This document shows, in pieces, positions 8,052 to 43,624 of a stretch of 64,000 bases of DNA. The translations under genes were made by a program, and so were the position numbers. The notes under the pieces are model-generated. The model was not told the DNA's origin and made no database searches. It worked only from the letters and a program-made list of their open reading frames with translations. Source of the DNA: Cliona cf. orientalis (Eukaryota; Porifera; Demospongiae; Clionaida; Clionaidae); contig OZ005704.1 in NCBI GenBank assembly GCA_963930775.1, forward strand, positions 2,046,001-2,110,000. The letters are read 5' to 3'. Within the stretch, counting starts at the first letter, position 1; every line of letters begins with the position of its first letter.

Positions 8052-11329
<3,278 letters not shown>

Positions 11330-17930: not shown

Positions 17931-20900
17931 TTACTTCTCAAAAATAGCATTGGTGGCTGAAAAGTTATTATTGACCTTTTTCAGATTTGCCTTGACCAGC
18001 TTAATTTCTGACAGATGAAATTGCGGCTGAGTCAATCGAGTCGACAAAGATTTACGTCTCTTGTATTTTCTCCGTGTAATGATCGAAACAAGCAGTACAA
18101 TCAATGATACCAATACAACACCGAGAACACAACTTGGCAGTATGATGTGTAGCTGGTTGCGATTGGGGGTGTTTATGATTCTGTTCCCTGCATGATATTA
18201 TAGCAAGAGTATATTGTGTACTACGACATCTATGTATAGCCTTGACCCTGAGGTCATTCTTATATTTGGGATTTTTCTGCGTTTAACATTTAAAACGTGA
18301 GTGGCCTGGGAATGAGGCTAATTGAGGTATGTAGTTCCATAATGACACTAATTAAGAGATTAACATTACCTGTGCACTCAAATCCATCTCCACTGAAGCC
18401 TTCTTGGCACTCGCAGTAAAAACTCCCGTCAGTGTTGTAGCATATTGCTGACTCATCACAAGGGTAGGGCTCCTGTTCACACTCATTGGTATCTGTATTG
18501 CAATGTAACATTACTGTCTGAACTAAAGGGAAATTGTGTAGCTAATTCTGCCCTCACATATTAAAGCTTCTCACCCCTGGGTGACGATACTATCACCTGT
18601 GGCACTTGGCTAGATGCTCTATCCATCAGGCTCGACTCATCAAAATTGATAATCATAAGCTATAGCACTTTTATACATGTCCCAAGATTTTTCATGGAAA
18701 AAGGTCTCCAGTCGAGTCCTGGCATTTTTTTCTCAAAGAAAATAAAACATCTTGGGACTGGTATATACATTGGCATATTATTATTATTATGCTCTAATGA
18801 ACTAGTGGTAAGATACAGCCACAGTGTGGTTGCCATACACAATTGTGGTAAGACAAGACCCACTGTGGCACTAACAGCTGCACAGTAACTACTAATGTAG
18901 TATACTGGTTAAGCACCCGTGGGCACTTCACATAATAGCTCACTATTAAATTCTGGCTATACTTAATATAAATAGTCCAAGCTGCTACATTGAATGTGGC
19001 ACATGGGTATTTACCTGGGAGTATTTTAGATGCCTCATTCAAAGTAACCATGCAAATTCTAATCACTATTAATTAGCTCTTCCATTATACAGGCACACCC
19101 ACACGCATAGACAACACACTTGCATACACTCTACACACATTACACATTAATTACTGGCTTATAGACACCTTACCAAAAGTCACATTTCCATTAGCAGTCT
19201 GCAAAGTAACTAAACTGCTGTTATCTTGTCCTACAACTGATATGTAGACTATTCCAGTATCATCTTCTGAGACTTGGTTGCGGCGCTTTCGTTCCTGTAT
19301 TGGTCTATAGTGCACGTGGTCGAAGTATGTACTACAAGCAATAGCTATCTTTTCTTCTGGTGTAATCGTTATCCGATAGTCATGTACTGCATCACTTGGA
19401 TTTGGAATTGACGAAACATACAATGTGACCCTTCCGCTCCTAATGCATAGCCTAATAGTGACACCTTCACCACCAACACCCTTTCTTATCCACCTCATGA
19501 TCTGATCTCTCTCCATTAATGCAGTTCTGTTTTCCTCTTGTTCATCAATTGGCTCAGAAACTGCAAGTTATAGTTACAGGATGGGTTCCTATACTACAAA
19601 GGGTAATACAATAATTAGGTTGATAGTAGCTGCTGCTAACTCGGCAATTATAACCATGTCACAGATGTTCAATGTATAATAAGTCCTTACTCCTACTCCT
19701 AGATTAAGCACAGTATCTCCACGGTATGCTCTTCAATACATTCAAACCCCTTCAACAGCTGACACTGTATAATGGATACTTACTTTGATCCACTTTGAGC
19801 CTACACAATGATAGTGAGCGATCTTGCATAATGGACCCCCGAACTAAAGGGTACCCCACTAACCACTATAGTTAAGTGTCCAATGGCAACTTCTGAGGAC
19901 GTACATACGCATATTAATTATTAATTTTACATACGAGTGTAACATATCTGATAGCGGAGAGAAGCTGGCATTCCTGCTGTTTGTTTGTAGCTGTCTAATT
20001 CAACAACCAAATGACGCCCTGAAGCAATTGTTGAAAGTTCCTCAAAGTCTATCCGATGTCCTATTCCAACTGCCATGACCAGAATATGTTTGTTTTCAGT
20101 GTGTATGAGATTGGCCACATCCTCGGTGTTTCCCCTACACGCCTCATCCTCTGAAATATAGTTTGATCGACCATCACTTAATACAATTGCCAGGTGTAGC
20201 ACATTTTGATTACGTCGCCATTCTTCTTGTTTCATTTTGCACAGGCCATCAGCGGTGTTGGTATATTCAAAAGGTTGGTATTGAAGATTGCAAATCTTAT
20301 TTAACAGAGCAGTTTTGTTCAAGTTCTCATTCAGAGGATGGTATACGAACGCAGTAGACCGAATTAGTACAATTCCAATTCTGTTGTACCCGCGTCGTTC
20401 AGGTTCATTGGACATAGTCATGTTTGTGAAGTTATAAATCATTTTTTTTGCATGTGATAAGTTCCTTTCAGAAACACTGTTTGATGCATCAATGACAAAC
20501 ACCACATCAGTTTTAATTGTACAATCTGCATTATGATCAGTTGAATTCTATAATAGCTATAGCATTATACCTTACCTTGGTTTGTGAGATGAGTTTCTGC
20601 GTCGAACCATCTGTGATCTTCATCGTCTGCACCATTAAAATGATTTTTCCACAGTTGTATTTGATCAGAAAGTAGTTCACTCAATTCACCAACATTGTTT
20701 CCATTAGTAAGTGCTTGGTCTAAGCGTATCATAGTAGCAAGGCCAGAATACAGTGGTACTGATAGATTATTCTTCTCAGCATTGAATCCAATAGCCATCC
20801 AATCAAAGCCAAGGAATGATGAATTGATCCTCTGCCTGAGGGTTTTATTTCGTCTATTGAAAGTATCAGTACTATTGGCATACATTTGCGTATTTATAAG

Positions 20901-21275
20901 CTCATCTTCAGAGATAATATTCCATATTCCACCTCTCCTCTTTTGTCTACCATCCTTGCTTTCTACATAAGCCATACGTCGTAGGAAAGATTTTGCATTA
21001 TCTCTACCAAGTCGAAACCATTCTGAGTTTTCAAACACTTTGGAGGCATCAATTTTTTCCAAAACAGCAATCACGACATTTACACCACTAAACCCAGGGA
21101 TGAGTGTTCCGTCAACTTGTATAGATTGTACTCCTCGTGGTTGCATTGAAATACAGATCACAATAAGGAGAACATGCTGCAAACACATGCGCGACACGGT
21201 TCCATGGGCAGACTTTGACTGCGGCATGTTCGCAAGTAGTACTGCTATTAGTAAATGTGACTCACGCACTTGCAA
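17931..21275 (-). CDS. Single-pass receptor with vWFA and EGF domains
   Basis: Five exons (21275-20576, 20525-19935, 19560-19174, 18492-18370, 18187-17931) join to 685 residues, all in class-1 phase. The order is: leader (the likely signal peptide starts at the second-choice Met MCLQHVLLIVICIS, residue 30), an N-terminal domain (about 50-230), and a von Willebrand A domain from 234 with MIDAS motif DASNS (246-250) plus downstream TNT and SDG. A 130-residue linker domain with a tetrabasic site (RKRR), an EGF domain (about 560-600, six cysteines, NTDGSFYCEC) and a membrane helix (615-637) follow, then a basic tail without obvious tyrosine motifs. The intact MIDAS predicts metal-dependent ligand binding outside the cell. 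The N-terminal block (AYVESKDG, then GGIWN, then PLYSGL) recalls lysozyme-like folds attached to invertebrate vWFA proteins, but this rests on memory only. The gene diverges from the adhesion GPCR. Confidence 0.85.
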
Positions 21276-21619
21276 TGGATGGCCCCTCTAAGAGCTTTAT
21301 CAAATTCACTCACCGTGATCTTCCAATCTGTTGTGTAGCTATACTATATTCAAGCACATTAAGTTTTTGATTGTTTCGGCCCGGCAGTTGGGTGGAGCCC
21401 CTGGGCTGGAGCTCAAGATCATTGTTTATTCACGTACCGTCGGGAATTATGTCATGACGTAATAGCTATGCTGTATACGTCAGAAGTCGTTGAGTGCATG
21501 CTTTAATTTACAGGCCGGTTCCGTATAGCTAGGTCAGATATTCTGTGATTAGTGGTCGACTGAGTTGTATTCTACTAACTTGTTCAACAAACGATAGGCG
21601 CACTGAGGCTCGGGGAATC
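21276..21619. promoter_or_regulatory. Shared divergent promoter, vWFA receptor / adhesion GPCR
   Basis: 344 bp lie between the start codons of the two divergent surface-receptor genes. The CCAATC at 21324-21329 resembles a CCAAT box. Joint control of the two receptors is inferred from spacing. Confidence 0.45.
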
Positions 21620-24600
21620 ATGGCGCCGGCAATGATAGCCAGTGCTGGACGGTGTGTGGCTGTGGTTTATTCTGCTACAATAGCTATTATGAGTATGCTG
21701 GGAAGTACAGTGACTATGGGATCTGCACTTGGTAATCAACCAACTGACACAGTGTTGGAGGGCTTTCGGCCCCAGCATCTGCGGGGGCTAAACATTTGTG
21801 ATCAGGGGAAAGCCTGCAGTCACTTAATGTCAGCATTAACCACCGATTCAATCATGTCCTTGGAACTTTCTCATTCAGTGAAACTATTTCACTGTGTTGG
21901 TCAAAGAAACAGGATGAAAATTAAAGGTTTTCGCAGTACTAGTGAAAATTCAAATGAAACAGAGGCTTGGATTTCCTATAAAGGTAAGAATTAGCTATTC
22001 ATCTGTGTGCAGGTGTATCTATTCGCTGGACTGGACTACTCAGGGACTCACCTTTGACCCCAAAATATTAGAAAGAAATGGTCATTTTGCACTGATTGGC
22101 AGTGATAGAATGCTATCGTCCCTTCTCTGGTCCGGAAGGTATTAACTTTACATGCTATCAGGCCTAGTAGATGAAAATCAATTATTATATAGCTAGCTAG
22201 CTAGCTACTAGCCAGTCTGCATGATATTGCCAAACCATGCAACTAGGTAGCTAATGTAGCTATTTGGTAATAGCGACATGGATAGGTACCGATAATAAAA
22301 AGGTCCTCCCTCCTAGTTAGTAGCTAGCTATAATAGCTAGTTAATAGCTAGCTTGTTTCCTCTAGATGGCAGTGACTATATGTTTGCATGCCAAATGATC
22401 ATGCATCGATGATAGAAAACTCTTCCATTTTCTAGCTACATAGCTACCTTGACCATCGAATAAGCAATCACTACATTGACTATTCAGATGTATCATGGGA
22501 GTAGGCTGAGCAATGTGGTTTACTGTAGCAATTAAAAATTGGCATTAGTGCCAGTAACACCCATTTTGTAGCAGTGTGATATTTAGCTAGCTATAGATTG
22601 GACACCAATGATTGGGTATCATCATTTACATGTAGTAGCTATAGGACATAATAATATTATTATTATAATATTACATATTCTGAAGAGGCTCTAGCCCGAA
22701 AAATAGGTGCTGGGCTGACCGGACAGCTAGCTAATAGTGACCGTACTGGCATAGCTATAGCACAGTACTAGCAAAGCAACTATAAAGATCCTGAATCAGA
22801 TCACTATGGTGAAAATGGAAGGGCTGGGGGTATTAAATCCTCAAGTTCTCATTTGTGCCATTTTTGGGTCAAAGGTGAGTCCAGTAGTCCAATCCAGTGA
22901 ATGGACACACCCTGTATTTAAAGTAATGGCATATTCCATACCGTAGAAACTGGTTGTTAAGCGCATGCGCTTATAACACGCGGCAGCAAGAAAATATGCG
23001 CTTAACAGGAAGCATGCGCTTAATTAAAAGTGCCAGAACACGGTAGGTGGGGCGTGCGTAAAGAACGTGTCGAGGGCAGAAAGGTCTACAGCGATGGCCA
23101 AGAAGCGACCAGAGAGCGTAATTCTCGACGTTTTCTTCTCCAGCCTACTTCTAGCCTTCTTTCTGGGATCGTGTAAACGATTGCTCGTCATTCAGGTGGC
23201 TTGCTGGGCATATGCGCCTAACAAAGAGCGGCAAAGCTCGCACAAAACTATGCGCTTAATAAAAAGTATGCGCTTAACAGCGAGCAGCGCTTAACAACCA
23301 GTTTCTACGGTATAATATTATAATAAAAGCCAACAGGCTCAAGCTTGGTGGATGCTGGGACTGGAGCTATACAATTTGATAGTCTCTTGTGCGCGTGGTA
23401 CATGTAGACAGTGAATTTTTCAAGTGGAGGCAGCCACTGATATTTCAGTTAATTAAGCACTGGAGTGCAGAACCCTCACCGCTACTTATATACCCTGCAC
23501 CTGAACAGAGTTCTGGTAGAGGATGGTAGCTACTATTCTATTCAGATCTAGAGTCAGATTGGGAGCAGGGGAAAGGCACCTTGCTATATCACGGCATAAA
23601 CTGAAAGCCTCTGTGACATACCTAAACACTGCATATTTATACTGTATACTGCGTTGACAACTGACCAGCAAAAGCACAGAATGGCAATCAGTCATGTAGG
23701 TGCCATATGCATGCTGATAACAGTGCAGCTGCTCACTGCTACTACACCACTGGGCAGCACTACTACACCATTGGGCAGGACCACTATTCCTTTATGCCAA
23801 GTGCACACTTTCTCTCAGATGACCCTTACCATTTAACACAGGAGGGTTTGGGTGGATGGACAGATGGATAAAAATTACTGAATGATTGTAGTAACCCCAC
23901 CACCTGTATACGCTTTGTGGCAAGAGTTAAGAGATATCTTGCCAGTGAAACTATTCCCAAGTAAGGACTATGATCAGTCACTGAGTGATATATTAATTAC
24001 CCCGCGCGCATGCGCTAGGGGTAAAGCAATCGGTTTGTATGTCTGTCGTTGTCGTCGTCGTCGTCGTTGTCGGCACGAAAATCGCCAGATCTAGCGTTCT
24101 AGGTATCTATGCGTGCTGAAAGCACGACCAATCGGTGGATATCGGTGAAAAACTGCTTTATACGTGTTTCAAATTCCTCAAAAAGGCTTACTAGTGCTAC
24201 AAATCGTGCATTTTCTGTTCAGCATGCCTGTGGTTTATCGACCACACCCACTCTTTTAGCATAATAGTATGCGGATGCGACTACGCATGCTCAAGCACTG
24301 TGTTGGAAAGGGTCGTCACGTCATGAAACAGCTACATGTATGCCTCATAGTGTTGCAATACGACGCTATAGTGGCTACAGAGCGCGCGGGGTATGTGCTC
24401 TACAGAGCTCTAGTTTTAATATGGCATTTAGACACATCTCTGTTTCACGTTTTGTAGCTACCATTGCATGATGGGAGTGATATGCACACCTGCATTTCTT
24501 TCATATGCATTATAGGCCACGAATATAACATAATTAATGAACACTATAGTATTTCCGGGAAGATACACAATCAATGTATACATCATGATGGTTATGATTT

Positions 24601-27600
24601 ACTCTAGTACCTGAATTTCCCAAAGATCATTATGTTGACAGTTTATGTCTCTTGATTATGTCTGTTTTTTTCTACGTATGACTTGCCGGACATAGGATGT
24701 TATATTATAATTAATACAGCCTGTCATGGCAAGAATAATTGCGTGCAGAGGTTGTCACCATGCCCATTTATTGAACCACACCCATTTTTAATGATCCGCG
24801 CCCACTCAATTGTCCCAGAAAGATCTGCACTAGTACCAGTAATTGGAAATATACAAGCAAAGACTGTGAATGTTTGGACCCACATCACACAAAAATGAAA
24901 AGTAGCCATAGTGTGACTTTCCGGCTTAGTGTTGCCCAAATGTTTATCATCGTCACAGTTCACTAGTAGATACTCTCCCAGGACCCTAGATCTTTCGTCA
25001 GAGGCATGTATGGTCTCTTCTTCAGCTCTCTTAGTGTGTCATTCTGAGTACATGCAGTATTTTAAGGCTTACCACTAACTATATTATAGGTGGTGTACTG
25101 TGGTTAGTTACAGTAGCTGATACCACATTCAGGGTGGTTTGAGGCCAATTTAGTAAAATAGCTTTGTCTGCTGCATGCTAACCACAGTGATAGCAACTAT
25201 GTCAAGATACATAGTATAGGCCTGGTATGTAGGTGGCCATGGGTTGGGCTGCTCAGAATGACTGGAGGGGGGGGGGGGGTGCGGGTTTGCAACCCCCTGA
25301 AACCCCTAGATCTGCCCCTATCATTATCCACTGATACCCGAACGTTTGTTTAGACTTAGGTATTTATTGACTTTAAAACACATGCAACCGACCTATATTG
25401 GGACCATTCCTTATTTGAACCTGGCTTGTATTTGAGGATATAGAGTACAATGTGTTTATGACAAATGTAGCTACTTTGAGTCCGGTATAAGGACAATATT
25501 TTGATAAGCGTTCATTATGTTGTATCAAGAGTATATTAGGAAGAGTACATAGCTGCGTGGACGAGCAAGCTCCACGCTGTGAAATGGGGGCGTCATACAA
25601 TGTGTGCCAGCCTAGCCATAGCTAGGTATGCAGAATCCATATTTTTGCTTACACAGTGATCATGCATGTGTGGTTTGCATACAGTGTCGGGTCAGAATTC
25701 CCCCATGTAAGGTTTCTACCCTACAATCATGATTATTCATAGGCTTGTGGCCATACTATTTTCATAAAATCATCATAGAGTCGGTAGACTCTATAAGTAG
25801 GGATGGCCCGGATATGCCATATATGTAATACATTACAAAAACATTAATAATTCAGAGCAACTTAAACTTTAAGATTTTTAACTTTCATATTCATAATCTA
25901 CGCCAGAATATCTATCTAGAAAGCCCCAAAACATCTATGGAAACAATCAGGTATACCAGAACAAGCTGTGTAAAGAAATCACAAAAAGTGCTAAAATCTC
26001 AATCTTTGTTTTTCCAGGGCTATAACTCAAAACTCCCTGGATCGTTTACCTTGATTCGAGCATAAATCCTCTCCGTTTTGGAGCGCGCACATCTGTGGCA
26101 TGCTCGTTTTTGTGTTATCAGGAAAGCGATTTAATTGTGGGCGTGTTCAGCACATTTTGCAAGTGGGTGTGTCTGAATCGCCATTTTATCATAATAATGC
26201 GCATGCTCATATTGTATTGGTAACCATGGTGAAGTCATGTGACACTGGCATGGCACCGCGCGCGACCGCATCGATCACTCGCATGCGCACGCGCACTGCA
26301 CTGTACTCTGGGCCTGCGCGACCTCATCGATCGTGTGCGCGCGAGTGGAGCTGACAGAAGGCACTCAGGCTCACACTAGGGCTAAGGCCATGAAAAATGT
26401 CTGTTTAGGGAGCAAATCTCAGAAGCCAGTAAGTTTATTGCCTGGTAGTAACTTCTCTGGGCCTGGGATAGAGTCATGGTGAGTTGGCCCGTCGAACAGC
26501 TAAGCCAAGGTAGTGCTATACTTTTATCATCAACAAAATGAGCAGAACTTGATCGCTAATATGCGCTATCATGCAGCAACATAGAGTCATAGAATCTATG
26601 GCAGGAAGTAGTGATGGCTTGGTGCGGTCTGAGATATTTTAGCCAATATTGGAAAACAGCTTTTTGACTATAATGAAACAAAAGTGGCAACTGTTGAGAG
26701 TGGTGCTGTGCAGCTTCTGTGTAAATGTACCCCACTAAAAATGAGATACAGATGGCCCCGGACCCTGCATCGTGACAAGCGGTGAAAGATTATAATACTA
26801 TTGATCATATAAATGCAATTATGTGCGAGGTGTCCGTTTTTAATAACAGCCTCTGTCAGGAAATACCCTACTCAGTCTCTACTTAGCTATATTATGAGTT
26901 AATGGAAAAATCATGTCAGATGGTATTAATGAATTATCCTAAGAGGAATAAAAAGAGGAACAGAAACAAGTATAACAATGAAATTGAAGGATGAAGTAGG
27001 GATGGCAGGGTCAAAAAGTACACAAACAAGATTTGTAGTGATAATCACGTTCACTATACATCCCTACGCTTGCTTTTTGAGTAGGTGCAGGAATTAACTA
27101 ACCATGCAGGCAGTACTGCAACGATCAAAGCTGATTAATCTCCCCCCCCCCCACCCCTCTATGACGTGCATAGAATACAAACTAAGGATATAGCACCAAT
27201 GGGTCACCATCAACAGGCACATGATAATCGAAAAAAGCTAGCGTAGGGATGTATAGTGAACGTGATTATCACTACAAATCTTGTTTGTGTACTTTTTGAC
27301 CCTGCCATCCCTACTTCATCCTTCAATTTCATTGTTTTTTATACTTGTATACATTGTACTATGTGCTGTGATGCCACGATCATACTACATAAGCACAATA
27401 CTAACATACAGGAGCTACTAATACACTTTGTTTTGTGGATCCAAATGTGTATGTCAACTTAAAGGGTCTGAAAGTTATCATAGCAGTGTTACCACAGAAT
27501 ACTATGGAGCACTACTATTGTGATTGTTGCCATTGCCCACAAAAAGATCACCAGATAACAGTATCAGTTTCTAATACAGTATGTTGGATTTTTTCATGGT

Positions 27601-30600
27601 TAAATTTGGTGACCGTGCTAGCAACCAAGTCGATGGGTATGACGCTACACAAACAACAAGAGCTCTCGAAAGCACATACCCCATGTGCTGCATCTACATG
27701 CTGTCAGTGTAGCATGTCTTGTTCACCTATAAAATTATTATGTTGGGTTATGTGCATGGGGTGTAGTTGATAGGCATGGCCAACAAAACACATGCAGTGT
27801 TTGCAATGCTTGTGGGCCTTATTACATGTAGCTAAATGATTTTTGATGATTTCAATTGATGGAAGTATTGTGCTCAGATACCTAGATCTCGAGATCTGGT
27901 GATTTTCATGCTGACAACAGATAGACAGACCGACAAAAATATTTAAAATTAATGAATGATGTAATTGTTGCATGCTGTTGATCTCACACTGCATATCTAT
28001 ATATTATGACAATGAGTCGGTTAACTTCTGCCGCAAAGCAAAGGCGGAGGATACTTGATTTTGTCCATCCGTCTGTCCCTGTGTTTTCTGGTAAGGGTCA
28101 TCCAGCATAAAGGAATAGTGATCATAGTGATCATGTTAAGTCTGTTGTAGTGTGCAGCTGTTGCCAGTCTGTGTTGACATGGCACCTACCTGACTGACTG
28201 ATTGCAATTCTGAGAGTTGTCAATGCAGTGACAGTGTAAACAGGCAGTGGCTCTCAAGTGCATAATTACCCCGCATGCGTAGCAAGGGGTAAGCAATCAA
28301 TTTGTCTATCAGCATAAAAATTGGCAAATCTCAACATTGAAGCAAATGTATGATCAATAAATGGGATAAAATGGTGTAAGACGGCAAAAAAACTACCTCC
28401 TATCCCTTTTCTTAACCCTAGGTAATCGGTAGGGGAGCTGCAAATCGGGCAAGTATGTCGAACACTCCCATCTAGTACCTGTGAACTAGGCATCTACTGT
28501 GCATGCTCGAGCTTCTGTACTAGGGAGTCTGCTGTGCATGCTCTAAAATTAATGTGATTTGTGATTATGGATCTCAGAAAGGAATCAAAGAGATCACTTA
28601 AAGTTTCTGAGTAGCAAGAGGCTAAACATCAAAGAATAGCGGCCTCTAAAAGACGTAGTTGTCTTGATGCTTTATAGAACAATGAATTGGACACATAAAA
28701 TTTATAGAAAGTGTACCCAAAAGTAAGCAATAAGGATGTGAATAATAAGCATTACTGACAGCATAAGCTACGTTTAAATGTACGTACTGAGGAAACTGAA
28801 ATGCATTTATCTGGGAGTGAATTCCTGAGTGATGTGGTGTGTGGAACAATAGAATTTTGTATGGACAACGGAACAACGTAGCTTGTGGATAATCTTGAAC
28901 AAAAGACCAAGTTTTGCATGTAGCCTACATTCCTTGCGATATTGGTGATAATTTAATTATTATTTCGGGGTATATTATGCTCTATGAGCTCTAGTTCTGT
29001 TTAGGTGTCACAGTGGTTTTCAATTTAGCCAGGTGCCTTCCCCTACTCATAGATCATGCACTGATTTGCGGAGAACAATAACATCCTTACCAGAACCCTG
29101 TTTAAGTGCACAGGACCAGTACATTAAATTTTATACTGTATATATCCCGCAAGAAGCTATTGTTTATACCTGTAGCTAGCTATAGTATCATATAGCCTAG
29201 TGCTCTAATTCACAGGGGCCAGTACGACAGAGCACCTTGTATTTTGGGATCAAACCGTTTCCGCTGATGAACAAAACTGTTGCAGCAGCCTATAATATAA
29301 AGAAAAATATTTGTTAGACGGACATTTTTCTTATTATAGTCCATGTTCTAACCTGGAGGGCATAAAAGATGCGCTCTCCTACAAGTTCAGAAGGCCCACG
29401 ATTGATCAGGATCAGTGAAGTGCTGTGTGCACAAGCAAGGGTGCCATGGCCTAGGGGCCATAGAGACACATTCTTAAGCAAAATTTAATGGTGTGAAACG
29501 CCGCGCATTTTGAGAGGCCTGCCCACTGAGAGGCGAGGTTTGTTCTTTGTCATAGTCTGGTGGTGGTAGATTCAACGAGAGAGAATATCGCCATTTACAT
29601 GACAGTGAGTTTGAGCAGCTGCCCTTGGCCTGCAATGAGGGGTGTGGTCCACACCATAATAGCATAGCTTTTATCTGCACATGCGCACTGTACTAACTGG
29701 CAATTGATTGTATATTAATTTTGTGTATGCGTGTACTGAGTATGCTGTTAGTATAAGATTATAGCTCATGCATAATAGTCACGTTATCCTATAGTTGTGA
29801 CATCAAACATAGGCTTGTTTAATTCTGTAAAGTTATCTGTGTCATTAAATTTTGTTATTGGCTCGTTTGGTAATGCATAGATTATCAGTATGAATTAATC
29901 ATATGGGACCTATTCTATATCATTAATGCAGTACAATTAACGTGCATTTCCGATGCAAGCGTGGAGTCCATGATATTTTCTGCTCGGATACTTTCTGATG
30001 ATACCCCAATTATGGGTAGAATGAATAATATTGTAACAAATTGGATGTTTAAGCCAATAACCTGCACTCAGGACAAGATACAAGTAAGTTTGTCGGATTT
30101 CCACTGCATGGCATGCATGACATTTATCTACATGTGCTCATTATATTATGTACACCAAATATAGGATTCTCCAGTCCTATTGATGAGGCCACAGTTACAC
30201 ACACCTGAGACTTTGAATCTTAACTTCACAATTACTTGGGTTGCATCATCAAATATTAATTTAAAACTCGCGGCTGAATCAAAAGCTACAACTAGTCTAA
30301 GATTTCTTGAGTAAGTTAGCTACTCATTATTATATTGGTATCAGAAGTCATGTCCTTGTATTGCTCTGTTGCAAAGGCTATTCTGAGTGGTCAGAGTTTG
30401 TTTTGCGATTTGTAGGCCATGTGACTACTTTTCAAGATAATTTTTTTGCTAAAGCAGCACTACTTGGCTATAGCTACTTTTTTGACGTACTATATATACG
30501 CTATAGCTGAGTGAGCATTACATGGTTAGTCACTGGTGCATGTGGCATAATATGTATATATTGTGCAACCATCCATGACAAAACCAGCCATAATTATTAT

Positions 30601-33600
30601 TAGCAAAACCATTTTTGGGTTATGATGAGCATCACCAAGCACGATCTTTGGACTGGGATTGGTTTTGCTGTGCATGGCCCTATATTGCTATTTAGCTTTA
30701 TTTACAATCATTGATACTCTACTTGTAATTAGGTATGCAATGTTTGACTGTATGTCAGAGCAACTTTATCAAGAAAGATTACAACTTATTAAACTGGTAT
30801 GATACTTAGCTACTGTTAAGCTGAAAAACTTTACAGGAGAAAAATTTGTCAAGCCCAGCTAACTTTGTAATAATATTATTATTATTTTGCCAACGTGGTA
30901 AAACTTACAATAGGTAACAGGAGAAGAATTTGCAACAATAGGTGATGAAATTTTCTCCTGGTGTATATTTCCAGCTGTATCTAGTATAATAGTATTTCTT
31001 TATAATCATATTCATGTCTCCATAGGTAAACCATGGTCATTTTCCAGTGAAATCCTTGAAGAAGAGGGGTAAATTTAAATCTTAATAGTTTTGCATCTTA
31101 ATAATATCAATGCTTCTATAGCTATAACTGAGGGGGTATCTGGGTATCTCATTGTGGCCAATCGTCTCTACATCCATCATATTAGTCTGGACGGAAGTCG
31201 GATGAATGTAGCTGTTAGTGGACTTAAGTATGCTGTTGCTGTAGATTTTCATTTCAGGACTAACTCACTCTACTGGACTGATTCAAGCCGGAGAGCAATA
31301 ATGAAGTCCACTCTAGATGGAACAAAGTTAAACATATTATTAGATCACGGATTAACCCAACCAGGTATACAGGTTTCAACTTCATACATTGTCAAGTAGA
31401 ACGATAAACTATGTAGGGGTGATGGTGCAAAAAGGGTACACAAACACAAGGATATTAGCTGGTGATGGTATATAATACAAGGTGCATCACCATCTCTTCT
31501 TATGGTTCTTTTGAAATGATTTTTGTGCTATATATGTATACGAAGCAACAGCACTGAAGCCCTTTTCTATGAACTAATCAGCAGCTCAATACCGTCACAC
31601 ACTCAACATTGAGGGCCATGGTTAACTATACTCATAGTGCTATCATCTATGCTATGGGACACTACGTGGTGTGTGAAGTTCCACAATCATGCGCATTTTT
31701 GCATTAAATGGTATCCTACAATGAACAATGCGCTGATTTAATCTGAGAAGAGTACTGATACTTCATTGAAACGAATAATTATACAATAAGATGGAGCTGA
31801 TTTATGTTCAAATTAGAGTGAATGGTCAAGGCACGTAGTCCTGAGTTAGCGATCTGTTCCATTAACCATTATGATTACATTGAGAGAAGGGTAAATGGCC
31901 TGCAAATTTAGCTTTAGCTGGTTAGGTCACTATAAAATAGTGGATTCATACCTCCTCCCTACATAATTAACCAAGCGTGAGGAAATCACATATTGTCTGA
32001 ATAGCCCACATTCCTCAGAATTGTAAACTACTTAGTCAGGTACTCAATACAATAGACTGAATAGCTAAAACTTCTCATGGCCTTTACCACTCTCTAAGTG
32101 TGTGTATCCTGGCTAGCTGCCTATGTGCAATATGCTACAAACACTGGAAGCCAGTAATCACTAGTATACGAGTAGGGAAACTTCAAGAAACTCTCACTTC
32201 TCATCCATTATTTTGGACATAACGCTTTATTATCGCATTCGTCTATTTCATGGTCACCCTACTATGTCATAGCCCTTTTAAGCTGAAGATTGTGAATGAA
32301 AATTGATCTCTATTGGGATATACAGCTTTTGTAATGTATGGGAGTGTCCGAACTATCCTTACTTATAGAATCTATACTGACTCTGATGATTTCAAGGTTG
32401 AGATTTCAGGAGTCAGAGCAATGCTGAAAAATTAAAATTTTTTTGCATGTGTATTTCAAATTTTGAATTTGATAAAGTTAACATGCAGATACAGTGAATG
32501 GGAACTAAAGTTTACTTTGTGGGCAAACTTTGGCAAAGAGATGATTCAAAAGCATTAAATTTTATCCCCAGATTTTATATTATTCTGTAGAGAGCCTGGC
32601 TATCGACTGGATTAGCAATAAGCTCTACTGGACTGATGTGGGAGAGAGAGTAATAGGGGTCCTGGACCTCATCAGCTTTAACTACAAGCATTCCTTGATA
32701 TCAACGGAGACAAGTGTTAGTCCTAGAGGACTGGTAGTAGATCCAGTTATGAGGTAATTGTGTTAGTGGTACATAATTTCCCTTATGATATAAAAAGTTT
32801 TGTGGCCTCTAATTATTGTAGAAATTGTGTATAATATAATGGTTAATAAAAATTTAATAGCTATCATAATATTATGTGTAGGATTCTATATTGGACAGAA
32901 TGGGGTCGCACTAGTGCTAGGATAAGAAAGGCTTCCATGGATGGACAAAACACAGCAGTACTCTTTCAAGATGATTTACGGCGGCCATATGGAATAGCCA
33001 TGGATTATGATAATCAAATTCTATGTTGGACTGACTCTTACTTTGATAAAATTGAATGCGGAAATGTTGATGGAACAGGACGTAGGATGGTAGTCAGTTC
33101 TGGACTAGAAGAACCATTTGACCTAACTTTGCTAGGTGACACGTTGTATATATCCGATTGGAATTTGGGAATCTTGGCTACCAACCAATCAGGAGGTCAA
33201 CCACTACGAACAGTTTATGATACATTCTGTGATGGCATACAAACATTTGGGGTTCAAGTTGTTGCAGAGCAGAGGCAATTACTAGGTAAAGTAATATAAT
33301 ATAATATGTTGGACATCAGGCTACTATGCTCTGCTGAAATTCCGTAGCTGTAAACCCTTGTGATGATGACAGTGAAAGAAGATGCAGTCACTTATGTGTT
33401 TTGAGTTCGGTTAACTCCAGCGGTTTCTCTTGTTTATGCCCTGATGGGATGACCTTAGATGTTGATGGATTAACTTGTTCCCAAAGTAACCCATTATTCA
33501 CTATTTGTACAAACAATTGATTTTCCTTGTATATACACACACACTCTGTCAGCATCAGATACAAATGTAACAGTTTCAACAGTAATGGGTAAGCATTTTG

Positions 33601-36600
33601 AGAACAGCTGACTGTGACTTAAGCTTTATAAATTATGTGAGAATGAGATTCTGATACTTATTTATCTTAGGTTCATGTCGTATGGCTGGTTATGAAAGCT
33701 GCTGTACAAGTGGTGTGTGTAATGGCAGTCTCTCTCTGTGTTACTGTGATTCGGATTGCTATCACTTTGGCGACTGTTGCAATGACATTGAAAACACATG
33801 CTCATCAGCACAAACTCAAAGTAAGTACATAATTATGCATACATAAAGATGTTTTTCATAAGCTGTTTTTTTTTCAAATTAAGGAAATGCATATTTGCTG
33901 ATATCAAACGTTTTTTATATTCATCGGATAAGTCTTGATGGTGTACGAATGAAGACGTTGGATGCCTCCAGAGACATGATCAAAGCTATTGACTACAACT
34001 ATTGGTAATTAATCCTCAGCACATATACTATAGAGTTATGGTAGTCATTACCCCAGGCGCATGTGCAAGGTGTAAAGCAATCGGTTACTTGGATTTTGTT
34101 ATATAAGCTGGGCGTGGCATTTTTATCCAGTGAAATGTTTACTGTGTATATATGGTATAATTATCTACTCCAGATTATAATTATGCATTATTAAATTTTT
34201 ATCTTGTCAATAATTATTCAGGACGAATCATATATACTGGAGTACATCAAACAGGAATATTCTTTGGCAATCTCAGCTCGATGGGTCAGTGGTTACTCCC
34301 TTGCTGACTGATAATCTACAAACTATAGGTATGTTTGGTTTATCTCACTCCATGCACTAAATCAACTAATATCACATTGTACATGCATGTATACCTTATC
34401 AGATGATATAGCTGTTGATTGGATTTCAAACAAACTCTACTGGACTGATAATGGTCAAATAAGCAGAATAGGGGTGCTAGACATTGCATCAGGCTACTAT
34501 ACCTCAATTATCAACACTGGAGCTGGCACAAATCCAAGAGCTATAGTCGTTGATCCTATTCACAGGTGCAATTTGCTATTATGATAATATTATAGTATGC
34601 ACCATCTATCATAATAATTTGTATGTACATCCAATATATTATATACCAGAGTTCTGTACTGGAGTGATTGGGGTAGTGTGGCAAAGATTGAAAAGGCTTC
34701 AATGAATGGAAAAAATCGAACAGTGATTATTGATACTGGGTTGGTGTGGCCAAGTGGCTTGACAATTGATCATGCTCAACAAGTTTTATACTGGACTGAC
34801 AATAGCTATAGTCGAAGAAGAATTGAACGTTCCAACATTGATGGCTCTAATAGAAGAACAATCAGCGATCAGAGAATATATCAGCCATTTGGTATTTCTG
34901 TTTACAGAAGTACACTGTACTACACAGATTTTATAAGTGGAGTGAATACATTGAATATCAGTGGAGAATCTTTGCCTAAAACAATAGTGAATAGTCTCTG
35001 TGAAGATGCGATTGGAATAGAAGTGTTTAACATTGAAAGGCAACCAGCAGGTACCTATTAAACGATACTACAATGGACAAACTCACAATTTGTGATTATT
35101 CATGCAGGTACAAATCCTTGTCAGATGGCAAATGGTGGCTGTAGCCATATTTGTCTGTTGAGCTCTGTTGAGATAAGTGGATTTTCTTGTGCTTGTCCAG
35201 ATGATCTGACGCTTGATGTTGATGCTCAAACATGCATATCTACCAGTATAACATAAATTTAATGGTTATGGTACACACAATTATTCATGATAATAATTTA
35301 TAGGTACACAAGACACAGTAACACAAAATCCTTTGACTGGACAAGGTGAGGTTTATGAACTGCTTTAGCAAAGTTAGTCATATTGATTGGTAGGATAAGT
35401 TTGTAAGTGTATTTAAATCAAGTATGCTGGGGGGTTTCCTATATCTTACATGTATTCATGGGTGCATAAGGTACATGTGCCGCTGCTGGTTACACTGGTG
35501 GGTGTTGCACAAGTGGCATATGCAGAGGATTACCTCCCACCTGTTCCTGTGACTCTACCTGCCATGTGTTTCGTGACTGTTGTAGTGATGTTCCACCCTC
35601 TTGTCAACCAGGTTATATAGTATTAATGCATGCACTGATAGTTATTATAATATTGATCTTGAAGTGATATTATGATTGTATGTTAAGAATGGTTATCTTT
35701 AATAATAGCTGTAGATGTGTTGGAATTTGTCCAAGTTCCTTCTAACGTGACCACAATTCTTGATGGTCGGCAACAACTCGGCCAATTTCATTGCTCAGTA
35801 CGAGCATCTCGTGTAACCAACTTTCAGTGGAGATATACTGCTGTAAATCATGGATTGTTATCAAGTTCAATACATGGTGACAGTAATTCTCAGCAAATAT
35901 CAAACCAAGTTGGATCTCTTGACACCAGATATTCAGTAGTTTCGAGTGATTATTCCAGTGAATTGATCATTACAAACGTTAGTTTCTCTGATGCTGGAAT
36001 TTATACTTGCATTGCGAGTATAGGTGATACAGTCAGCCTCATTGAATCTTCTGCTTTTCACACAGTAGAAGGTAAAATTAATGCCATATTAATTGTAATT
36101 AGCCAATCATTGTGGTTTGGTCTTGTTAATTATTCATGGTGTCGTAGCATGTGACTCGATTGTGATACAATTTATACGTGGGTATAGAATTGTTCATGTG
36201 ATTCAATATCTTCTAACTCATTGTGTAGTGCTTCCTAAGGTGACTGACATGACTGGAAACTACTCGTTCAGCAATGAGGAAACACTACATGTGTGGTGTA
36301 GGGTGGAGGCATATCCACAACCATCCTTGGCATGGATTATCAGAAAGTTTAAGACAATAAGAAGAATACTTCCCACAACTAGGGCTTCCGTAGGAAGTAC
36401 TTTCTTTATTATTGACAGTGGAAATCCTTACTTGAGGAGTGAACTCACTATTGATAATGTAAACTCAGATGATAGTGGTGAATATATATGTGCAGCCACT
36501 GCAGATATTAGGTACTCCCTCGTTCGAAGTGGTTCCCACCCTGTCACTATAATATGTAAGTTTTTTATATGGAAATAATGTAGTATTGATAGGTAAAAAC

Positions 36601-39600
36601 TCTCTTGTTGATAGCAACTAATGAATGTGAAAAATCCCACTCACCATGCTTGAATGGTGGAACATGCATAAACGACAATGGAAGATATCAATGTGTTTGT
36701 TCAAGTGATTACAGTGGAAGAAATTGTTCTCAACGTACGTATAGATCCCATGCAATGCCCTAAGTTTCTGTTACGTTCACTCTATCCTTGTAGGAATTGA
36801 GCCATTTTCCAAATTAGTGAAACCATTCTTGACCAGTACACCTACTAGCAAGGTGATAGTTGAGTTGGGAAACTCAACCAACCTCACCTGCGAAGCAGCA
36901 GGATATCCTACACCAACTTTCCAGTGGTATAAGGATGGTGTCCCGATTTGGGGGGAGAATGAACCCTCATTATTCATATCTGAAGTATTACCAGGTGATA
37001 GGGGAAACTATTCTTGCAAGGCAACAAACAGTCAAGGAGCAGTTGAATCTGGTCAAACACAACTTTTAATACCACGTATGAGATATTAACAGTTTTTGTA
37101 TGATAATACAATGATCTATATGACATATTGTCTCCATAGGCATTTTTCAGTATGCACCGACCTTGAAATGTAATGGGACTCTTAATATCAATGATTCTCA
37201 TGAGGTGCATAATACTAATTACATAAACATTGATGTATATGCATGGTTTATCCCTTGTATAGATTCTGACATTGATAGCTGATTCTTCTTTTCTTAATGG
37301 TCATGGTATAATCTATTCAATCGAGCATTTGGAAGATCACACGAATTTAAGGTAAATATCAATGACCAAAGTATCCAGCAAATGTATATGCCCAATATCT
37401 GTGTTAACATATTCACATGCAGTACCAGTCATCTACTTTTGACTCTATTAACAATGGATAATATGCCACTGTATGACATTGTAAGGAAATTGCTTACTTC
37501 AGAGCTTATGGAGATTTGTTCAGTGTTGTCACTAAATAGATTTGGTAAGTGCAAAACTTAACATACCGTACTTGCTCTAATTATCCGAACGGCCAAAAAT
37601 AATTATTAATATCGCCGTTCGGTGTTAAATAGAAAGTAAATAGATTCGGGCAATGGTTTGTTCGAGTGTAAATAGAACGGATCCGGTGCAAATGGAGAAA
37701 ACACTATTATATCTATAGCAACGAAGAAACAGCAGTCGATGTCCAGCTCTAGAGTTCTCAGTATCGCTGTGCTCTCAGGAGCGATCACAAAATGATCGCC
37801 GTCTGTGTCTGTTACCTTTCTGCTCTTATATGCTGTCCAAGATGTGGTAGCCACTACGGTGGCCCAGAAGGGCCATGTCCATTACCCGATACAATATTTC
37901 TCATTACCAATTTCGACTTTTCTCATTACCAGCTTCCAATTTGGTTATTTCTCGTTTCCAATTTTGAGTTTTCTCATTACTAACTTCCAATTTGGGTGTT
38001 TCTTATTTCCAATTTCCAATTTCAAATTTTCTCGTTTTATAACTAACTTGGCTAATTATTTCAATTTGGGTAGGTACTCTTTGCGGGGTTAGTGAAGTAT
38101 CATAGTATTGATAGGCGTGTACACATGGAAAGCAAGAGGGTGGACAGAAACTGGTCATTAAATACTATTTATACGGCATAGCTACCCTATGGCTGAGGTC
38201 ACACAGTGCTGGCTATGTTAAAGACCCTTTCTTCTGACAATCTTCTGAATTACCCAAATCTTGGACCCTCCCCTCTCCCCCTTTAAGTTAGCGTCATGGC
38301 AGTCATAGAGCCACACACCTGTAATGCAATTTAAGCATAGAGGGTGTGGGTGGCTCCAAAGGCCAGGCTGTTGTCATATCTGACAGGCCCTGACTATCAA
38401 CCTCTTCCCCCTTACAGTCTACACTAAGACCTACCGTTTAATGGCAAAACGGAAATGATGTTTTCCTGCGTATGATTACGCACGCGCGCGTACGTATTAC
38501 GCGGGTACACGCAATAATCTCGTATACGTCCGTATATCTATCCGTGTACCGCGCCCTACCCAGGACAGAATGAATTTTTCTCATTTTCGAAGGCTCGTTT
38601 CTCGAAGCGCCTCGAGCGGTTCTGTTCCACGCTACTGCTATACACTGCCACTATGGTATAGACATCGAGGATGCCTCGTTTTTCGTTCTGGAATGAGTGT
38701 TACAGATTTGCCCCGAATTCAAAGTTCCATTCAGCCAGAAAAGATCAAGAAATGGACGAGCGAGTTGAACTGTCAGGAAGAAAGTACTCAAGACGAAGAG
38801 TTGGTAGCTATAACATAGCTAATTTAGTAGCTAAAGTTCAGTATTTTCTTTAGTTGACAGTCTAGCTAGCTACTGTCAAGAAAATAAAACAGGCTAAAGT
38901 GATAAATTATTTTAGATTTTCAAAGAACGCTCGTGGTGGCTGGGTGACCCTGGAAGACTCGGGATTCAACGGAGTAACTGCCCTGGTACTTACCTACTAG
39001 TGGACCAAGTCCCCTAGTGCTGGTGTGAGTGTTACAGATTTGCCCCGAATTCAAAGATGCCATCAGCCATACGCGGCTGAAAACTGGTTCATGTCTACTT
39101 CGGTCATCTCGGCACGCTTAGTCTTGTTCTTGGTATCAATATGAAGCTCAGCTCTTCTTCTTTACAATGGTACTTTAGATAGAACGATAGCTAACTCACA
39201 CTAGAAGATACAGTTGTACATAGACATGCACTATTTTTGACCCCACGTGTATGGCATGCATATCATTAACCCCCATAAGCGCCATGCAAACCGCGCGTTG
39301 ACATTAAAATGTATTGTACGTATATGGACTTCCGGTGGTCTTAGTGTAGACTGCTTAACATCGTAATTATTATTATAATGACGCTAAACAGTCATTGTAT
39401 AAAAGAGGTCTACGGAGGTTTAGCTAGACATATCACTAGTCTTGTGCCCAGCCCCCTTCACTGTTTCATGCACGAAGGGGGCTGGGCACAAGACTAACAT
39501 GTAGCTTCCATGTTGCACAGATGTGGATCAGAGCACATTGGCACATGCATACAACTGGCGCCTATGATAGTTAACTATACTTGCAAAGAGAATCCACATT

Positions 39601-42600
39601 GAAGTATCCCAGTTAATAAACCAGTAAATAACAGAAATGAGAAATACCCAAATTGGAAGTTGGCTAGTATAATAAAACTCAAAATCGGAAATAAGAAATA
39701 ACCAAATTGGAAGTTGGTAATGAGAAAACTCAAAATTGGAAACGAGAAATAACCAAATTGGAAGCTGGTAATGAGAAAAGTCGAAATTGGTAATGGGAAA
39801 TATTGTACCGGGTAATGGACATGGCCCTTCTGGGCCACCGTAAGCCACACTCTTCGATGAATGTAGAAGAGTTGTCTCGAGCTCCTGCCATGCCGTACCG
39901 TGTGGCCGTTCGGTTGATTTAGAGCGGATGAGAAAACTTGAAATTCAAGATATTCGACGAATTAGGAAGGAAATAAATTACTTAAACTTGCTGTTCGGGC
40001 TATTAGAATGTTCGAATAATTAGAGCGAGTACGGTACCCATACTTCTGAATGTAAAAATTAACGATCTTGGTATACATGCAGATGGATGTGAGATTAGTA
40101 GCCATAGTGAGCTTGACATTGGAGAGTTGATTGACGTTCCGTGTCCATGCCATGAGTATGTTTGGATGCTACCAGATGTAGGGAATCAAAGAGCCAGAAT
40201 AAATTGTGGTGGCTCTTATGCAAGTGGACCTGAACTGATGGATACCGACTTCAGTCAATGCATCACTGTTACTGATTCGACAACAAGTAGTTTATGTCAA
40301 GTGGCTATGGTAATATCCTCATTTATAGTTCCCTCACCCAGTTTGATGGTTTGTATGCATGCAAATTATTTAGTCCCTGCAGGGTACTCATGAGTATCCT
40401 TCTGAGTTAGTGGAGTCTGTACTTAACACTACCTCTGAGCAACAGCTAACCTCTATGGTAGATATTTCTCTGTTAGCTGTGATAGTCGAATTATTGACTA
40501 ATGAAGCCATAACAAATCCAAAGGTTTGTTGCCATCATATTATTATAGTTAACAGGTCATCCATACACTATTATTACATATTATTTATAGATCAGGGATG
40601 GTTACCTAAAAGTTATCGATTATTTTCAAATGTTGGACCCTCACCAATTAAGAAAATTGCAAAGTAGTACTAATTCCTCAACAAGGTGAGCAATAAGTTT
40701 ACTCCCAAAAATTTGCATTGAGTTTGCAATTAATTTGATTAATAGGGTCCTAAAGAGCCTTGAGCAGTTTGCTTCTGCGGTCATTATTGCAAACACCAAT
40801 GGAAGCAATATGGCTACTTCTTGGGGGTATCAGTCATACGGAATTTCATTGGTTGACATAGATACAGTTACAATTACAAATGGACAGACATTCAGTGCCA
40901 GAAGGAGAAAAATTTCAACGACAAGTGTCACTGAGTGGACGTTAGCGATAGTTGCAGGGAAGGACAACTTAAGTGAATCTCTTGTTACACTCGAATTGCC
41001 TAACCAATTTCTGAATGAATGTTTTTCTGCTGATGGTTCTCCGGGAGTGATTCGAGTTGCTTATTTTGTGTTTTCTGGAAGTAGCTTGTTCCAATCACCA
41101 TCAAATGAGGAGCAATTAATTGGATCAGTGATAATTTCAGCTCAAATAAACTGTAGTTATGATCAGATTTCATCACCAATTGCAATAACTTACGACACAT
41201 CTGCAGAGGTATGGTTAAACAATGATAAACAGCAAGTTTGCAAAAGTGCATGATTGACAAACTGCATGTTTGCAAAAGTAAATTGAAAAAGTGCAAGTTT
41301 ACAATTTGAAAAACTGCTAAGATGAATGGCCCTTCTGGGCCACTGTAGTAATTATATGTATATACATACCATCAATGATCGTTACGACTACACATCCTTG
41401 CAGGAAGATATGCAAAGACAATCTTGTGTATCTACATCGATATCACAAGGTATTACGTAGTATTGTCAAGAGTACATTAGAGAGTCTCAGAGTAAATTAA
41501 ATATTATGCAACATATAGTAGTTTAATAATAATTATTATAGAAGCATTTATTAATTTTCTGGACTTTATGTAAACTGTGGGATGCCAGCTGGTACTTAAA
41601 CTAAAGTATACATGTAGTTCAGGATCATAGGAGGTATATTAGGCCACTACAAATAATTGGATCATAGTTTGCCATCCACCGCCAACTTTTTCTATTATTG
41701 CACTTAAAACAAAAATATTGATGATGTAATTGTATTTTCAATAGTATTATAATTTATGGTCTATTCATATACGTTTGAGTTGCAAGCTGAGTTGGTGATG
41801 TCTGAGAGAACATATTGATTCTTCCTGTGCTTAATATCAACGTTCAGGCTGATGGGAATTAATGCACCTGCACGGAGATCAAGTTAACAAGGGGTAATTG
41901 TGATTGATCTTTTTTTGCAGGTTTGTGGTTAACTACACACTGCCAACAATCCTTGGAGAGTAGTAGTGATTTAATTAAATGCAGCTGTTATGAATTACCC
42001 TATTTTGGATTGCTACCCGTGAGTTTTGTGGCATTTAGCAACGGCAAAATCCATGGTAATAATTATATCTACAGGAACCATTGTCAATTGATATCGTTGT
42101 ATTGGTGTACATTGCTGTTGTATTTTCTTCCTTTGTTCTTATATTTACAATCATCACTATCATTGAAGCAAGGTAAGTCTATTCCCATATTATACATTAC
42201 ATTTATAGTAGCTATGAACTGCATGTGCCAAATCTTTTGCAGGCTTATTAAGCTAATCTCTATCGCTGAAGTGGTTGTTCTTTTCCATGTTGATTTGATA
42301 CTGATTTTTAATTACTTCTTTTTTCTGCTTGGAGCCAACTTTACAACTATTCCCATCCTGTGTGGCATTAACTCTGGTGTGCTACAACTCATCACACTTG
42401 TGTTCTATTGTTGGTTAGCTACTCAAGCAGTCCTGTGGTATCTTAAATATTATCAACACTCAAAAAAGCAGTCACTCATGTGTATGGCTGTTTTATCATG
42501 GAGTAAGTCGTGTTCTACAAGATAAGCACCATAATAATAATATATTATTATGCCATAATATTATTATTATAATATTATTATATTATATGTTTGCGCTTCT

Positions 42601-43624
42601 GTTTGTTTGACACCCCTTCGTTATAGTTTTTTTGGCAAAGGATTGGAATGGAGACTATATTATTAAAGAACAGGGTGCCTCTGAAACTTGGGAAAACCTC
42701 ATGCATTACTTTATAGCTATTCAATATTTGAGTATTGTCATGCTCTTAATACATGAAATTAATATTATGCATATCTTTCTTGCATGCATCTAACACTTAT
42801 GTGTATACAGTTCTACCATTGGTGGTGGTTGGTTTGACAGCAGCTATTTGGTATGAATCCTACGTCGATACCTATTTGTAAGTTATCAGCATGTTGTATT
42901 ATCATAGTTGGCTGACTGTATGATTATTATTAATTTTGATGTTCATGGCAGTTGTGGAGTAACTGATTGGCCACTTTTGTTAGGGCTAACGCTTCCTCTT
43001 GCGTTTATTGGCAGCATCCATTTTGTCATTATCATTCTCCATTTCTACAAACTAATCATCAAAAGCAGTCGAATTAGGAGTGCTACTCAATCATCATCGC
43101 CAATGAAGTCTTATCCAAAAACAATAAAAGTGATTATTCTTACAGCTGCTGTGTTCTTCACTTTCTACTCTGGTGCAATATTTCAGCTTCTGTCTGTAAA
43201 TCGCCGACTAAATCATTATTCAAAGCACTTTCAGGTTGTGTATTCAGTATTGGCCATTATACAAGGACCACTATTTTTTGCACATGTTCTTTATTGTTCA
43301 GTGAGAGACATCAAACAACTTAGTACGTACAAGTTCTTCTGTTGTGCATATATCACAAGAAGCGCCCACCTCAGTGGTGAAAGTTACCACACTTCTGAAT
43401 CAACTAATACTACTAAAGCAAGCATAAATTCTTTATCACAAGCTGAATCAACCACTAAAGCAAGTATCAATTCATCTGACATCTTTAAAACAAACAATGT
43501 GAGTGGGGAAGTCGTCCCTACCATGAATGCAAATCCGGCATATGAAAGACATGTGATACAGTGGAGAAAAAACGAGTTTGCCATGAAAAAAAATGATGTA
43601 TACGAGACAGTTACAATGCTTTAA
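21620..43624 (+). CDS. Adhesion GPCR with YWTD, SMB, Ig, EGF and GAIN domains
   Basis: About 35 exons join in phase to 2,183 residues. Main exons: 21620-21983, 29932-30083, 30165-30310, 31122-31364, 32591-32753, 32882-33285, 33348-33485, 33671-33820, 34650-35050, 35108-35245, 35471-35611, 35709-36071, 36229-36555, 36615-36734, 36794-37075, 37423-37544, 40083-40309, 40746-41208, 41404-41449, 41921-42018, 42075-42172, 42243-42502, 42811-42877, 42952-43624. Order: leader region; YWTD propeller 1 (257-526), EGF (527-572), 10-Cys somatomedin B (585-634); propeller 2 (635-898), EGF (899-944), SMB (959-1005); Ig1, Ig2, EGF (1236-1275), Ig3; HormR-like and GAIN regions (1462-1770); GPS; seven helices; and a tail with NPAYE and DVYET motifs. 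Helix 1 ([17 protein letters not shown]) appears only if the 56-bp intron at 42019-42074 is spliced out. The link from exon 1 across an 8-kb intron rests on phase only, so the true 5' end is uncertain. Probably a plasma-membrane adhesion sensor. Confidence 0.85.
22941..23310. mobile_element. MITE with CCGTAGAAACTGGTTGTTAA ends, TA duplication
   Basis: The left end CCGTAGAAACTGGTTGTTAA is mirrored exactly by TTAACAACCAGTTTCTACGG at the right, with TA on both sides. Internal TGCGCTTA motifs recur. The TA duplication suggests a Tc1/mariner-driven non-autonomous element. Confidence 0.8.
24000..24100 (+). repeat. Dispersed repeat, ACCCCGCGCGCATGCGCTAGGGGT family
   Basis: A short palindromic core of a run of C, GCGCATGCGC and a run of G, followed by AAGCAATCGG and GTTGTCGTCGTC. 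Related copies appear near 28266-28330 and 34055-34090 on this strand, and near 27860-27930, 53000-53095 and 62930-63010 on the other strand. Mobility and class are unknown. Confidence 0.6.
26966..27350. mobile_element. Near-perfect long hairpin element
   Basis: Arms of about 105-113 bp (26966-27071 and 27238-27350), containing GTAGGGATGGCAGGGTCAAA and its complement, are almost identical. They surround a 165-bp loop. The high arm identity suggests recent origin or gene conversion. A truncated relative starts near 31411. As part of a GPCR intron, the transcript would form long double-stranded RNA. Confidence 0.85.
38415..39353. mobile_element. Nested element with CAGTCTACACTAAGACC ends
   Basis: A 17-bp perfect terminal inverted repeat, with CTTA next to both ends (38411-38414 and 39354-39357), lies wholly inside the 37855-39842 foldback element. 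The 939-bp interior has no recognised protein. The 82-residue open frame at 38570-38818 has no known motif. Confidence 0.7.
39437..39496. repeat. 60-bp perfect hairpin
   Basis: A 23-bp arm (TAGTCTTGTGCCCAGCCCCC plus TTC) and its exact complement flank a 14-base loop. Its end resembles that of the element at 51538-52198 (TAGTCTGGGTGCCAGCCC). A half copy is near 62788. Confidence 0.8.
41211..41347. repeat. Solo terminal repeat of the foldback family
   Basis: It ends GGGCCACTGTA, the complement of the family end TACRGTGGCCC. It carries the TTTGCAAAAGTGCA subrepeats also found at 48290-48412. It lies in a GPCR intron immediately after a donor site, and no partner arm is present. Confidence 0.65.

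Follow-up and report, generated by a model that had tools for sequence, protein, structure and literature searches.

A 64,000-nucleotide (nt) stretch of the genome of the sponge Cliona cf. orientalis (assembly GCA_963930775.1, contig OZ005704.1, positions 2,046,001 to 2,110,000; hereafter, the window) carries on its plus strand, at 21620-43624, what is probably one gene encoding a cleavage-dead class B2 adhesion G protein-coupled receptor (GPCR) that combines an LRP-type ectodomain with proposed signaling through a tethered agonist. The predicted protein opens with an N-terminus without a defined domain, continues with two successive cassettes of a YWTD propeller, an EGF domain and a somatomedin B (SMB) module, and then with the series Ig-Ig-EGF-Ig, a linker, HormR, GAIN with its GPS, and seven helices. 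The receptor is known here from genomic DNA and from sequence comparison within one genome; at that level, its architecture, the homology of its named parts, the duplication of the cassette and the existence of relatives at three other loci are confirmed.

The gene model was obtained by reading positions 21200-44800 by eye and joining exons at GT-AG boundaries. It comprises 36 exons totaling 6,552 nt and encodes 2,183 amino acids (aa); all 35 introns are GT-AG, and the frame is open, with a sole stop at the end of the chain and none before 43622. The initial annotation had reported about 35 exons summing in phase to 6,552 nt, a figure that the present model reproduces. This agreement was reached after a correction guided by a paralogue on another contig (C18), not by the sum. 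The first model (33 exons, 6,660 nt) was dropped; it had kept two introns between the GPS and the second transmembrane helix (TM2) as coding and had misplaced exon 25, and the C18 paralogue gave the right splices. Exons 1 to 6 form the weakest part of the model, with marginal paralogue support at C18 and at a second relative, C1. Exon 1 is separated from exon 2, downstream of it, by about 8 kb, and the 258 aa encoded by the six exons had no Pfam family match. Aligned with the DNA upstream of the paralogues, these residues scored 232 at C18 (192-204 for six shuffled versions), 136 at C1 (116-127) and 132 at C14 (116-132), the last not above its shuffles.

The ectodomain is built of repeated units. 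Both propellers match Pfam Ldl_recept_b, both are followed by an LRP-type EGF, and both SMB modules contain 10 cysteines (Table 1), in line with the twofold propeller-EGF-SMB repeat that had been proposed from the letters of the window. The SMB module of vitronectin has eight cysteines. In longer context the first SMB module matched Somatomedin_B at an E value of 0.0067, and the second was not listed in its own longer context. With unit 2 as the query, the propeller-EGF part matched LRP2, LRP4, LRP6 and LDLR in the PDB over almost its full length. The Ig region matched Pfam Ig_3 at 1.4e-34 across three stretches. The linker aligned at all four loci (the window and its three relatives) and, together with the following exon, forms the conserved motif R[FY]DGC[NE]. 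Three Ig domains, one EGF, HormR/GAIN and seven helices had been predicted after the second SMB module, and all of these were found; their order had to be revised, as the EGF lies between the second and third Ig domains and a linker of about 90 aa precedes HormR.

The predicted receptor core carries the traits of class B2: a secretin/adhesion seven-helix domain, a GAIN domain with a GPS next to TM1, and HormR before GAIN, an arrangement that is frequent, not universal, in adhesion GPCRs. GPS was matched in all four members (in the window at 0.0099-0.013, below the Pfam cut-off), and HRM was matched in three, the window not among them. A profile of the four members matched ADGRG6 in the PDB at 6.1e-12 over the GAIN part; 22 of the 37 rows returned were adhesion GPCRs, and the other 15 were DOT1L at 0.15 or worse. 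When the window helices were searched against the PDB with phmmer (E values up to 10), all six matches were adhesion GPCRs, the best being ADGRL2 at 8.1e-5. In the helix region, grouping of fifteen hydrophobic windows by eye gave seven clusters.

The same domain order recurs at three loci on other contigs (at C1 followed as far as TM1/TM2), C18 with one cassette and C14 and C1 with two each, so that three of the four loci, counting the window, carry two. They were found as same-strand neighbors by comparing by eye the genome match lists for PF00058 (at least 70 matches) and GPS (113 matches); the GPS list lacks the weak GPS of the window itself and could lack further weak ones. With the window protein as query, tblastn recovered the order YWTD-EGF-SMB-Ig-EGF-Ig-GAIN/7TM (7TM, seven-helix domain) on C18. 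The C18 model runs from propeller to stop in 25 exons (1,577 aa, in frame, with one base of the first codon assumed), and its pieces matched 7tm_2 at 3.4e-27, GPS at 2.4e-7, Ldl_recept_b at 1.4e-30 and HRM at 2.7e-4, the last below the cut-off. The helices of C14 resemble those of C18. Counting window introns of the overlap, and taking as the same place anything within 6 alignment columns, 21 of 24 introns are common in place and phase with C18, 26 of 29 with C1 (counted to TM1) and 24 of 29 with C14; introns were placed by hand in C18, and in C1 and C14 by a splice-aware aligner blind to the window introns. The splice-aware alignment on C1 scored 5916, compared with 744 for one shuffled protein and 498 for the wrong strand, and with the C1 protein as query 24 of 29 window exons were recovered exactly as in the hand model. 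Because the order, the bridging linker exons and the introns recur at three loci, two unrelated neighbors are not expected, and the initial annotation's reading of one gene, in place of separate LRP-like and GPCR neighbors read together, is supported by comparison of these loci. At positions 9309-10021 of L045 (C14), extra Ig-like stretches lie between the first Ig domain and the EGF, which suggests an Ig-pair duplication in that receptor.

The gap between exons 26 and 27 (37545-40082) is, judging by its repeats, an intron filled by nested transposable elements. Terminal inverted repeats of 27 nt each lie at 37564-37590 and 40010-40036. Inside is a repeat of about 940 bp (38415-39353) that has 39 other matches in the genome at 93-99% identity, with 40 of 946 candidates scored. 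The counterpart of this intron in the C18 copy is 86 nt long (13915-14000 of L024+L025).

The history of the cassettes was read from their identities and from a tree. In the window, units 1 and 2 are 43.6% identical; unit 1 of the window is 49.5% identical to unit 1 of C1, and unit 2 is 55.0% identical to unit 2 of C1. In a tree rebuilt without the two long-branched C14 rows of 15, the units of the window and C1 paired unit by unit, with support of 99/95 for unit 1 and 100/99 for unit 2. With the C14 units included, these joined each other weakly (73/54), and units 1 and 2 were not kept as clades. Since the unit-wise pairing is well supported without the C14 rows, the doubling of the cassette looks older than the split of the window and C1 genes. 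The same propeller-EGF-SMB cassette also occurs in clusters on C19, which, together with the NIDO-type cassette genes on C15, are a possible source of the cassette. The latter are tandem genes (L035-L038, C15:5512001-5552000) with NIDO-like stretches (by eye), SMB, a YWTD propeller, EGF and three SMB modules. Elsewhere on C15 (C15:1632891-1647613, L009-L015), a cluster within 15 kb contains seven SMB matches, which lie in open frames of about 500 codons.

The H-x-S/T triad at the GPS is common in adhesion GPCRs but not required, and uncleaved members are known. It is replaced at all four loci: E-L-P in the window, Y-I-A in C18, Q-F-G in C1 and Q-L-A in C14. The last strand of the GPS reads CECTYIAHFGIL in C18, CECSQFGHFGIL in C1 and CECTQLAHFGIL in C14; in three control receptors of the same genome (L006-L008) it reads CKCNHLTHFAIL, with the triad HLT. 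All four members keep the Phe and Leu of the agonist strand, which reads YFGLLP in the window. PMC13062082 gives the canonical triad and makes the case that reversible action of the agonist is possible in uncleaved receptors. With the triad lost and the agonist Phe and Leu kept, an uncleaved, reversible receptor is therefore expected on that argument, and we infer from these residues that the protein would not be self-cleaved and would work as a single chain.

A mechanism can be proposed on this basis. The propeller-EGF-SMB rods and the Ig domains would bind a protein in the matrix or on a neighboring cell; force or binding would loosen the GAIN domain; the uncleaved agonist strand would reversibly engage the seven-helix bundle; and the engaged bundle would signal via G proteins. 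Ligand binding, force sensing and G-protein coupling are predictions here. A far more speculative version, to which we give little credence, is that the family reads LRP-type ligands directly, its LRP5/6-like propeller-EGF tandems binding secreted cystine-knot or Wnt-pathway-like proteins and signaling through G proteins without proteolysis. If that were true, one sponge molecule would do the job that is done elsewhere by an LRP co-receptor and Frizzled.

Several points weigh against the reading of the window protein as an agonist-driven receptor encoded by one gene. Pfam 7tm_2 and HRM found no match in the window protein itself, whose GPS-7TM part is 27% identical to that of C18; because the window protein is too divergent for Pfam by itself, its HormR, GAIN and 7TM assignments rest on paralogues and PDB matches. 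The last residue of its agonist strand is a proline. The HLT control consists of three receptors of one look-alike group, which were the only pattern matches in the eight loci scanned (L001-L008). Among the paralogues, C1 helices are discernible only as TM1 and possibly TM2 in the stretch of DNA analyzed, alignment beyond that not being credible; C14 has eroded propellers and a draft model with a 5-nt exon and with 9243-10084 skipped. The C18 protein, a more distant query than C1, rebuilt only 9 of 25 window exons exactly.

The strongest competing explanation is of a real protein whose helices are chiefly an anchor: it would be a receptor for adhesion or scavenging with LRP-like uptake, internalized via the NPAY motif in its tail and without agonist-driven G-protein signaling. 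The loss of the cleavage triad at all four loci, the strong divergence of the window 7TM, the NPAY motif and the LRP-type propellers are consistent with it. However, among the three complete proteins a tail NPxY occurs in the window only (in C18 and C14 an NPFY lies inside the seven-helix region), the C18 helices have a strong 7tm_2 match and those of C14 resemble them, and the agonist-strand Phe and Leu are conserved throughout. We regard it as unlikely, although deserving of consideration. Much less probable is that the family works but the window copy is a duplicate in decay that yields no functional receptor. Of the three members with a complete 7TM it diverges most (from Ig1 to the end, about 29% identical to C14 and to C18, which are 47% identical to each other), and about 12.5 kb downstream there is a partial second copy; yet its 2,183 codons contain no stop, its introns all keep GT-AG, and its last exon can still be aligned to the tail of the downstream copy. 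Least probable of all, and very unlikely on the paralogue evidence, is that two neighboring genes, one LRP/Ig-like and one for a GPCR, have been read together: the 2.5-kb transposon-filled gap between exons 26 and 27 and a model drawn from genomic DNA would allow it, but the order and bridging linker exons recur at three other loci, introns and phases are common with the paralogues, and no stop interrupts the chain.

The window holds further putative coding sequence. A partial second receptor at 56090-57279 extends from TM4 to the tail by tblastn (33% identity over the last exon); it has a TM3-like stretch by eye and an NPAYE tail motif like that of the window receptor. On the minus strand at 17931-21287, divergent from the receptor gene, there are open frames that encode a VWA domain and an EGF; a probable membrane helix is also visible by eye. 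At 49356-54793, a protein kinase exon is followed further on by kelch repeats, possibly in one gene.

Table 1. Predicted parts of the receptor gene in the window, with the matching residues of the protein
Feature	Position	Strand	Residues	Basis
Putative exon 1 (ATG, hydrophobic start, Cys-containing N-terminus)	21620..21983	+	1-258 (N-terminus, with exons 2-6)	Open frame, GT donor, phase fits exon 2; least certain exon
Putative exons 2-6 (N-terminal region)	29932..31046	+		In-phase GT-AG exons; exons 4-6 uncertain
YWTD propeller 1 (exons 7-9)	31122..33285	+	259-528	Pfam Ldl_recept_b 7e-33
EGF 1, LRP type (exon 10)	33348..33485	+	529-574	FXa_inhibition 1.7e-8 (exon alone), 1.7e-6 (longer piece)
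Linker exon 11	33559-33588	+		
SMB module 1 (exon 12)	33671-33820	+	585-630	10 Cys; Somatomedin_B 0.0023 on exon alone, below Pfam cut-off
YWTD propeller 2 (exons 13-16)	33884..35050	+	635-898	Ldl_recept_b 2.4e-25
EGF 2, LRP type (exon 17)	35108..35245	+	899-944	FXa_inhibition 1.2e-8
Linker exon 18	35304-35345	+		
SMB module 2 (exon 19)	35471-35611	+	959-1005	10 Cys; Somatomedin_B 0.023, below Pfam cut-off
Ig domain 1 (exon 20)	35709..36071	+	1006-1126	Pfam Ig_3 stretch; best V-set stretch
Ig domain 2 (exon 21)	36229..36555	+	1127-1235	One Ig_3 stretch of three
EGF 3 (exon 22)	36615..36734	+	1236-1275	Pfam EGF 3.4e-5
Ig domain 3 (exon 23)	36794..37075	+	1276-1369	Best Pfam Ig_3 stretch
Linker domain (exons 24-26), ~90 aa	37140..37544	+	1370-1461	Place and motif also in C1, C14, C18
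Transposable-element insertion inside intron 26	37564..40036	.		27-nt terminal inverted repeats, 168-nt inner inverted arms, inner repeat
HormR (HRM) domain (exon 27)	40083..40309	+	1462-1537	Alignment with HRM-matching members; Cys and PCPC invariant in four
GAIN domain with GPS (exons 28-32)	40383..42018	+	1538-1818	GPS in exons 31-32, 41404-42018
Seven-helix domain (exons 33-36)	42075..43345	+	1819-2091	PDB matches and hydrophobic windows
Cytoplasmic tail and stop	43346..43624	+	2092-2183	NPAY (NPxY-type) motif at 43532-43543

SMB modules in adhesion GPCRs have already been published; the combination with YWTD propellers appears to be the new part. In the accessible text, the amphioxus survey lists SMB, LDLa and I-set among the domains of adhesion GPCRs (PMC2246102), and another study describes SMB-bearing NvX/PARF1 receptors from Nematostella and planarian (PMC3261222). 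The window receptor shares with these the SMB modules in an adhesion-type ectodomain and differs in its YWTD propellers, none of which are named for them in the same text; the term YWTD is absent from the amphioxus text. In their accessible parts, the Amphimedon survey names HRM, EGF, Ig, fn3 and SRCR, its main text being without YWTD, LDL receptor or somatomedin (PMC4302439); neither YWTD nor propeller occurs in the choanoflagellate GPCR survey in eLife (PMC12716839); in the legend of the Halichondria survey, the abbreviations include LDLa, SO, NIDO, HormR and GAIN, with a class B repeat absent (PMC8242945); and the Stylissa carteri study reports YWTD domains with SRCR-like ones, GPCRs being unmentioned (PMC4772301). 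A full-text literature search for YWTD with the phrase adhesion GPCR returned no paper, and an unremarked example in figures or supplements is possible.

As in the LDLR/LRP family (LRP2, LRP4, LRP6, LDLR), a YWTD propeller is followed by an LRP-type EGF, and an NPxY motif stands in the tail of the window receptor (NPAY), with none in the C18 and C14 tails. Unlike that family, the window receptor has an SMB module after the EGF and seven helices instead of one, and LDLa repeats, a trait of LDLR/LRP, were absent from the five pieces of the window protein scanned with Pfam at E values up to 0.1. The C15 NIDO-SMB-YWTD-EGF-SMB proteins have the same cassette, with NIDO-like stretches (by eye) where the receptor core would stand; the GPS list has no match near their cluster, and it lacks the weak GPS of the window as well.

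On the receptor side, ADGRG6/GPR126 (GAIN) and ADGRL2/latrophilin-2 (7TM) are the nearest solved HormR-GAIN-7TM receptors and have the GAIN-GPS-7TM core in common with the window protein, which differs from their kind in its ectodomain of YWTD-EGF-SMB cassettes and in the absence of the H-x-S/T triad. The latrophilin (ADGRL) ectodomain carries a galactose-binding lectin and an olfactomedin domain; unlike latrophilin, the window pieces scanned had no Pfam match to either. To our knowledge, adhesion GPCRs are mostly without known ligands. For the proposed evolution of their ectodomains by domain shuffling, a sponge family carrying whole LRP-type cassettes offers a concrete case, with a candidate source of the module in the same genome. 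ADGRB2 and ADGRB3 (BAI2 and BAI3) are likewise HormR-GAIN proteins and, according to the accessible part of PMC13062082, were obtained uncleaved at the GPS, a state that we infer for the window receptor. For ADGRB2 the H-x-S/T motif is argued there not to be sufficient; in the sponge family the triad itself is replaced in all four members. Triad-less receptors that keep the agonist core would make the use of a tethered agonist by uncleaved adhesion GPCRs testable in an early-branching animal.

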